Positions 36,148-39,100 of a stretch of DNA of 64,000 nucleotides are shown here, piece after piece. Position 1 is the stretch's first letter; every line of letters begins with the position of its first letter. The position numbers and the translations under genes are program-made. The notes under the pieces were generated by a model. The model worked only from the letters and a program-made list of their open reading frames with translations. It was not told the DNA's origin and made no database searches. Origin of the DNA: Desulfobacter hydrogenophilus (GTDB taxonomy: Bacteria > Desulfobacterota > Desulfobacteria > Desulfobacterales > Desulfobacteraceae); contig NZ_CP036313.1 of NCBI RefSeq assembly GCF_004319545.1, forward strand, positions 2,048,501 to 2,112,500, in the 5' to 3' direction.

Positions 36148-39100
36148 TTGGATAATATTTATGATTTCTTCGCAAAACCCAAGGATCCCCAAAGTTACAA
36201 GGGCGTTCAGATTAGCCTTGCATCATCAGATCAGATTCGGGAATGGTCCTACGGCGAAATAAAAAAACCCGAGACCATCAACTATCGAACCTTTAAGCCC
36301 GAACGTGACGGTCTTTTCTGTGCCAAGGTATTTGGACCGACCAAAGATTACGAGTGTAATTGCGGTAAATACAAACGCATGAAGCACCGGGGTGTGGTTT
36401 GCGAAAAATGCGGGGTTGAGGTTATTCAGTCCAAAGTCAGACGCGAGCGTATGGCGCATATTGAACTTGCTGCGCCTGTCTCCCATATCTGGTTCCTGAA
36501 AAGTCTGCCTTCCAAGATCGGTAATGTCCTGGACATAACGTTGAAGAATCTGGAAAAGGTTCTTTATTTTGATTCATATATTGTCATCGACCCTAAGGAC
36601 ACGGGGCTGAAAAAAATGCAGTTGCTCTCCGATGACCAATATTATGAGGCTATTGAGACATTTGGTGAGGAAGGCTTTATCGCCGGGCTCGGCGCAGAAG
36701 CCATTTTGACTTTGCTTAATGAGATTGATCTTCAGGCGGTTCATGACGAACTTACCGAAGAGATCGGCTTGACTAAATCCATGGCCAAGCAGCAGAAAAT
36801 GTCCAAGCGCATGAAGGTGATTGACGCCTTTTTGACCTCAGGAATAGAGCCTTCCCGGATGATTCTGACGGCTTGCCCCATTCTGCCTCCGGATCTGCGT
36901 CCTCTTGTTCCCCTTGAAGGCGGCAGGTTTGCAACCTCGGATCTCAATGATCTGTATCGCCGGGTGCTCAACCGCAATAACCGTCTTAAACGGTTGGTTG
37001 ATCTCAATGCACCTGATATTATTGTCCGAAACGAGAAGCGGATGCTTCAGGAAGCCGTGGACGTGCTTTTTGACAATGGACGCCATGGGCGGGTGGTCAC
37101 AGGTACCAACAAACGTCCGTTGAAATCCCTGTCTGATACGCTCAAAGGCAAGCAGGGGCGTTTCCGCCAGAATCTCTTAGGTAAACGAGTGGATTATTCC
37201 GGCCGTACCGTTATTACCGTAGGCTCTGAACTTCGCCTCCACCAGTGCGGCATTCCCAAAAAAATGGCTTTGGAGCTGTTCAAGCCGTTTATTTACAATT
37301 ACCTTGAGCAGAAAAGCCTGGTTTCCACGGTTAAAAGTGCCAAGAAAATGGTTGAACGCGAAGAGACTGAAGTATGGGATGCCCTTGAAGCAGTGGTAAA
37401 GGAATACCCGGTGATGCTTAACCGTGCGCCTACCTTGCATCGTCTTGGCTTCCAGGCATTTGAGCCGGTGCTGATCGAAGGCAAGGCCATTCAGCTTCAT
37501 CCGCTTGTGTGCCCGGCATTCAACGCTGACTTTGACGGGGACCAGATGGCCGTCCATGTGCCCCTGTCCCTGGAATCCCAGCTGGAAGCCAGGATCATGA
37601 TGCTGTCCACCAACAATATTTTGTCCCCGGCAAACGGCCAACCCATTATTGTTCCCACCCAGGACATTGTCTTGGGTATATATTATATGACCCGGGCAAT
37701 GTCAGGTCAGCAAGGAGAAGGGGTCACCTTTTCAAGTATCGACGAGGTGCGCTTTGCCTTTGATGCAGGGGAACTGAATATTCACGCCAAAATTAAAGTT
37801 CGTATTGACGATGTTATTTATGAAACTACCACGGGCCGGATTCTTCTGTGGGAAACCATTCCCGGTGATGTACTTTTGAACATGAGTCGTATCCGGACCG
37901 AAGCTCTCGAGGATGCAGAAGCCGCACTTGTTGAATTGAAGGCCGGAGATGATTTCGATGCTGTCCTCGATAAATACGGGGATGAGGAAATTAAAAAGAC
38001 CCGGGGGATAACAGGTGTTTTAACACGTAAGGAATTTAAAAACCTTTTCCAGGTTTCCGACGTCGTGGTGGAGCAGCTTTATGGACTTAAACAAGGGCAA
38101 TTCACAGATGTTCGGATGGTGGGCGACAAGTACACCATTTTCAAAGTGGAAGAAAGAACTTCTACGTTGCCGTTTAGTCTGGTGAACAAGCTTATGGATA
38201 AGAAATCCATTGTAAAGCTCATTGACTATGCCTACAGAAATATTGGCTTAAAGGAAACCGTTATCCTTTCCGATCGTCTAAAGGACATTGGATACAAGAA
38301 CTCAACGCTTGGCGGTTTGTCCATCTGTATTGATGACATGATTATTCCGGCAAATAAATGGGAGTTGATTGGTAAGGCTGAAAAAAATATTGAAGATATC
38401 AAAAATCAGTATTCCGAAGGCCTGATTACCCAGGGTGAGAAATACAACAAAGTGGTTGATATCTGGGCCCAGGCCACAGATGATATTGCCAATGCCATGA
38501 TGGAGGTAATGAAAAATCCGCCCCAAAAAGAGGGGGCAGACAGTTCGGAAGAACTCAATGCCGTCTATGTCATGGCGGATTCCGGTGCCCGTGGTTCCAA
38601 GGATCAGATGCGCCAGTTGGCGGGCATGCGTGGGTTGATGGCCAAACCTTCCGGTGAGATCATTGAAAATCCCATCACGGCATGTTTCCGTGAAGGCCTG
38701 TCCGTGCTCCAGTACTTTATTTCCACCCATGGTGCCCGTAAGGGACTGGCTGATACTGCATTGAAAACTGCCAACTCCGGTTACCTTACCCGTCGTCTGG
38801 CTGATGTCGGCCAGGATTGCACCATAGTGGAGCCTGATTGTGGTACTATTAACGGCATTGAAGTTGAAGCGTTGTATGAGGGCGGGGAGATTATTCAGAC
38901 CCTTGGGGAAAGAATTCTTGGGCGTGTTACCCAAGAGGATATCCGCGATCCCTATTCAGATGAATTTATTGTGGCTTCTGATACAGAACTTGATGAAGCC
39001 GATGTGGTTAAAATTGAAGCAGCAGGCGTTCAGCGGGTAAAAATCAGATCCGTCTTGACATGCAACTCAAAGCACGGTGTCTGTTCAAGATGCTACGGCC

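Follow-up and report, generated by a model that had tools for sequence, protein, structure and literature searches.

A parvulin-type domain inserted in the RNA polymerase beta' subunit of Desulfobacter hydrogenophilus and its relatives

Here, we describe a domain inserted in RpoC, the RNA polymerase (RNAP) beta' subunit, of Desulfobacter hydrogenophilus. The window analyzed is a 64,000-nucleotide stretch of this genome (GCF_004319545.1, contig NZ_CP036313.1, positions 2,048,501 to 2,112,500). We find that the insert belongs by profile to the PpiC-type parvulins, a family of peptidyl-prolyl isomerases (PPIases), and that its predicted structure has the parvulin fold. Among the matches listed for the Desulfobacterota genomes sampled, it is confined to one order. 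In the window's own lineage the two hallmark histidines of the family have been lost, and the domain is thus probably a binding pad on the polymerase. That the captured domain serves as a peptide-docking module on beta' is the reading we favor, at about an even chance of being right.

An inserted domain in RpoC

Between P572 and L674 of RpoC we count 101 residues, where an earlier, sequence-only reading of this DNA had put about 99 extra; E. coli K-12 RpoC has two there (P584-K585-G586-L587). The motifs cited by that reading were all found in the translation. Among the matches listed when RpoC was compared with Protein Data Bank chains (phmmer), the two alignments shown stop at query residue 558 and restart at 671. 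In the samples surveyed, the segment is a lineage-limited stretch of more than 40 residues between blocks common to bacteria, as expected of a beta' insert. The rpoC gene matched only once in the whole 5.16 Mb genome. Thus, the insert-bearing RpoC is that of the housekeeping polymerase.

We rejected two other accounts of the segment. That it is a general beta' region, an objection raised in the sequence-only reading itself, is ruled out by E. coli and outgroup sequences that were read and do not have it. That it is an artefact or assembly error is countered by the many assemblies carrying it at the identical site.

Searched alone, the insert matches PF13145 (Rotamase_2) at 32.3 bits (E 2e-7), above the curated cut-off of 27, and it is through this family that it is placed among the PpiC-type parvulins. 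Its score against PF00639 is 19.6 bits, under that family's cut-off of 21.7, and in a scan of whole RpoC the PF13145 score is 26.2 bits, also under the cut-off. A PF13145 scan of the whole genome gave five matches above cut-off, the RpoC insert among them. A Pfam scan of 81 insert members returned three rotamase families, together with stray matches to two other families (in three members and one member). No HABAS or BEAN domain appears among the matches listed for the insert, a result that does not exclude their presence.

The structure model of the insert predicts a parvulin fold, and among solved structures it is closest to the foldases and chaperones PrsA and SurA. The parvulin homology and fold first proposed from sequence are thus backed by the profile match, by the structure model, and by relatives whose motifs are canonical. 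On the polymerase, the insert is predicted to form a domain of its own. Four inserts (L021, L052, L068, and L069, from genomes G254, G554, G476, and G428) have internal or loop expansions of 8 to 29 residues.

Distribution and history

Our survey covered samples of the Desulfobacterota, and its listings outside the order show best matches. The insert profile matched inside an rpoC-sized frame in 16 of 17 same-order genomes, the window's own included. Among the matches listed for 378 other genomes of the phylum (to about E 2e-10), none lay in an rpoC-sized frame, the longest frame being 726 amino acids (aa). A draw by class returned only members of the same order, 73 of 78 with an insert match in a frame of at least 906 aa. 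The remaining five comprise three that are without the insert (G370, G413, and G468) and two that gave no PF04983 match (G615 and G573).

PF04983 matched 265 of 291 genomes of the order. In 239 of these the match was split into two or three, or was single and partial, a pattern that fits interruption and was read in sequence for part of them. In 15 genomes the match was full or nearly full over 720 to 750 bases, and in 11 over 429 to 471 bases, which means no insert; all 11 sequences were read. In a draw across the phylum, 288 of 297 genomes matched, the 12 from the same order with two pieces each. A single match was found in 267 of the 276 genomes from other orders, with best-scoring rows of 423 to 558 bases and four of the single matches weak. 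Nine gave two matches: the five that were fetched have nothing at the insert site, three have a full-length normal match, and the ninth is G003. Separately, two loci of one family (L101 and L102 of f67, in G221 and G284) have PF04983 spans 129 and 84 bases longer than usual, representing a different insertion with none at the insert site. One rpoC-domain match in the order survey (G558:C288) contains a TAG codon.

We read insert sequences from about 70 genomes of the order. A scan of named genomes kept 80 of 292 confirmed loci, all of which match query residues 1 to 156 over 462 to 474 bases. Named carriers include Desulfatitalea alkaliphila, Desulfosarcina, Desulfococcus, Candidatus Desulfaltia, Eth-SRB1 and 2, and an Olavius symbiont; insert-bearing RpoC records also bear the names Desulfobacter postgatei, Desulfotignum, and Desulfobacula. 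Lineage specificity, as first suggested, holds for the insert itself but not for Desulfobacterota at large, since the samples show it in one order only (named members Desulfobacterales). The mapping of carriers proposed in the sequence-only reading gives an order-confined insert, yet some lineages within the order are without it, most simply by loss.

We built a tree of joined RpoB and RpoC with the insert columns removed (61 rows, 2739 columns; quick method, no bootstrap). The order's earliest branches are the noncarrier families f163 and f112. All 41 carriers descend from one node (SH-like approximate likelihood ratio test, SH-aLRT, 96). Among the carriers are nested the noncarriers f127, f124, and G370. 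Insert presence requires a minimum of four changes, consistent with a single gain and three losses; counting well-supported branches alone, at least three are needed. G370 has an open rpoC in which DNI is followed at once, with the frame intact, by KRPEIPF; at this point G549, of the same genus, has 93 more residues. The simplest history would be a single capture of the domain by an ancestor of most Desulfobacterales. A tree of the domain itself has a branch that separates the 41 inserts from 32 stand-alone parvulin domains, a set that lacks three long rows (L345, L346, and L353); the support (SH-aLRT 91) is under the threshold for a secure branch.

The insert is under purifying selection. In four same-genus pairs with the window, its ratio of nonsynonymous (dN) to synonymous (dS) substitution rates is 0.04 to 0.09, with 89 to 92% identity to the window's insert. 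The corresponding values for 458 flanking codons are 0.02 and 97 to 98%, and insert dN is about three to five times that of the flanks. Two other pairs gave infinite dS.

Active site, position, and possible roles

In the window insert the two parvulin histidines are replaced by Arg581 and Thr663, exactly as the sequence-only reading stated, and the insert thus lacks the pair expected of a competent parvulin PPIase. That reading's view of catalysis as unlikely stands for the residues of the window lineage but does not extend to the order, where most relatives examined retain both histidines. Histidine occupies the first position in 70 and the second in 75 of the 80 named loci. One or both have been lost in 8 of 34 families, spread over several branches. 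The three carriers from the window's family in the 41-carrier set have Arg at the first position. Among 89 readable inserts, drawn from 97 proteins, 73 have Arg there, 14 have both histidines, and 2 have Gln. Since most relatives retain both, the captured domain was probably canonical at the outset.

The extra helix RKEFKNLF is presumably an addition to the usual parvulin set. On it, Glu629 is kept in 78 and Phe630 in 75 of 80 other carriers, and residue 632, Asn in the window, is Arg in 75 of 80 loci. The insert of the window's family has lost both histidines yet keeps its fold and the KEF helix and is still under purifying selection; it is thus probably a pseudo-PPIase that would serve for binding only.

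The insert ends at T673, and a host segment, K685-K702, begins 12 residues later. By sequence, K685-K686 and K702 correspond to K598-K599 and K615 of E. coli, where beta' K598-K615 forms the helix between the DksA tip and guanosine tetraphosphate (ppGpp) site 1. In a model of residues 480 to 780, the insert lies between host helix 562-570 and helix 685-698. From this alignment, and by analogy with E. coli for its place in space, we infer that the insert is near the secondary channel.

We suggest the following mechanism. A PpiC/PrsA-type parvulin domain would have been captured into the connection leading into the helix that joins the secondary channel and ppGpp site 1. There, close to the secondary channel, it may grip a stretch of a trans-acting protein that is extended or contains proline, and this docking may tune factor access or the pore region. 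In the window's family, with the histidines gone, the domain would serve binding only. The binding module of the sequence-only reading is likewise something we infer.

Several results weigh against this mechanism. Some lineages do not have the domain, which is therefore dispensable there. Both histidines occur together in 30 of 41 carriers, and thus enzymatic work is possible for the order. The 480-780 model has a predicted template modeling score of 0.53, and its orientation is unreliable. Possible partners (the DksA/TraR zinc finger, GreA/GreB, and omega) were searched for in 9 noncarrier and 12 carrier genomes, and their occurrence showed no pattern: DksA-type genes are in 21 of 21 genomes, and GreA-type genes and omega in 20, the exception being the noncarrier G501. 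Finally, when the three long rows are added to the domain tree, the inserts lose their single-branch separation and three changes are required. The smallest supported set containing the window then comprises three inserts and one stand-alone row (support 99), which is L353 by name in a separate tree and by count in the final one. One clade of inserts, with all long rows included, is nevertheless not rejected (approximately unbiased test, p-AU 0.54). Thus, a single origin of the inserted domain is favored, not shown.

We also consider a bolder version of peptide docking, which we regard as doubtful. A prolyl-isomerase-type domain built into the polymerase of most of the order, next to the secondary channel, would read or switch proline-containing segments of regulators. 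In the Desulfobacter line it would have become purely a sensor or docking site, marked by a new Arg/KEF signature.

An aid to assembly in cis, in which a built-in foldase acts on beta' or its neighbors during synthesis with no role in transcription, is unlikely. It would suit the kinship with PrsA and SurA and the paired histidines of most carriers, but the window's family has retained the domain without histidines, and G370, from a genus with other sampled carriers, has an open rpoC without the domain. An active prolyl isomerase on RNAP in most of the order, with a transcription factor or nascent protein as target and the window form as a late exception, also seems improbable. The histidine counts at the 80 loci would agree with it, whereas their loss in several families would not. 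Moreover, the position aligned to the PrsA-domain Asp, which we take to be the catalytic Asp/Cys position, is Asp at 2 of 80 loci and Cys at none, versus 12 of 32 stand-alone domains (by eye; a rough script gave 11, with some rows misplaced). The Asp position of GGDLG is L, V, I, or F at 58 of 80 loci. Least probable is a tolerated passenger, kept only since in-frame deletions in rpoC are rare and selected for solubility and fold: the raised dN, the expanded loops, and loss more than once on the simplest reading would fit, but the low dN/dS, an EF motif followed by Arg or Asn in most carriers, and the insert's occurrence in 73 of the 78 genomes drawn by class argue otherwise.

Surrounding genes and known systems

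By eye, the open reading frames (ORFs) 3' of rpoC look like S12, S7, and EF-Tu; other features of the window are listed in the table. Phage RpoC relatives (80 kept of 175 confirmed) have 26 to 36% identity.

Table. Features of the window, with positions counted from its first nucleotide
Feature	Position	Strand	Basis or context
rpoC, RNA polymerase beta' subunit, 1460 aa, TTG start	36148..40530	+	ORF list; RNA_pol_Rpb1_1 to _5 matches
Inserted parvulin (PpiC-type) domain, RpoC residues 573-673	37864..38166	+	profile, alignment, structure model
Arg581 codon, position of first parvulin His	37888..37890	+	alignment
RKEFKNLF, residues 627-634, helix between strand 2 and next helix	38026..38049	+	model, alignment
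Thr663 codon, position of second parvulin His	38134..38136	+	alignment
Host segment K685-K702, equivalent of E. coli beta' K598-K615	38200..38253	+	sequence alignment
rpoB, directly 5' of rpoC; joined to rpoC for tree	31923..36137	+	
DksA/TraR-type zinc finger match, 123 aa frame, window start	115-222	+	
Chemotaxis cluster	14388-21749	-	
HEAT-repeat protein with receiver domain	14388-16079	-	chemotaxis cluster
CheB	16954-18051	-	chemotaxis cluster
CheA-like hybrid kinase with Hpt, CheW (three stretches), receiver	18537-21749	-	chemotaxis cluster
Putative DDE transposase, 483 aa	23484-24935	-	
Lytic transglycosylase (SLT) with three LysM stretches	25610-27334	-	
MoaA-like radical SAM protein, adjoins tetrapyrrole methylase fusion	61176-62168	-	
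Tetrapyrrole methylase / uroporphyrinogen-III synthase fusion	62170-63720	-	

Many of these RpoC proteins already bear a PF13145 or PF00639 label in automated Pfam annotation. We recognized no description of a parvulin in RpoC among the matches listed in our literature search, which did not extend to the Lane and Darst 2010 catalogue of RNAP inserts; within that reach, the search agrees with the sequence-only reading, which knew of none. In the accessible part of a 2024 survey, lineage-specific beta' inserts occur at seven locations, one of them in beta'-bD4 adjoining this site, and named RNAP inserts are mostly HABAS, BEAN, or sLC domains (PMC11515920). Its main text, as available to us, does not contain the terms parvulin, rotamase, isomerase, PPIase, or Desulfo, and the available part of a 2026 paper on inserted domains (PMC13114784) mentions neither parvulins nor Desulfo- species. 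The RpoC insert of Campylobacter, described with an rpoB-rpoC fusion (PMC1557499, accessible part), is different from the parvulin insert. The Lane nomenclature for RNAP inserts is given in PMC2939025 (accessible part).

RNAP inserts can be factor contact points, and thus the polymerases of different lineages may answer to different regulators. The inserts of the 2024 survey are, in the part available, mostly a few repeated small folds, to which a parvulin would add a new fold for the role. Carriers are ecologically central sulfate reducers, including the Eth-SRB genomes and the Olavius symbiont, and they offer natural deletions and natural active-site losses of the insert that are directly comparable.

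Like Si1, Si3, and the BEAN and HABAS inserts (PMC11515920, accessible part), the RpoC insert is a lineage-confined domain between conserved blocks; those inserts are mostly BEAN, HABAS, or sLC, and this one is a parvulin. It is thus a lineage-specific RNAP insert of known type, with a fold unreported for that role in the literature searched, as far as the sources were accessible. With the PrsA/PpiC-type PPIase domains (PF00639, PF13145, and PF13616) it shares its sequence profile and its order of strands and helices, and most insert relatives examined share the two histidines. Unlike them, the insert sits within RpoC and has an extra helix, and in the window both histidines are replaced. SurA, which we take to be a periplasmic chaperone unrelated to transcription, differs from the RpoC insert in that respect; its first parvulin domain (2pv1) presumably binds peptides without isomerase activity.
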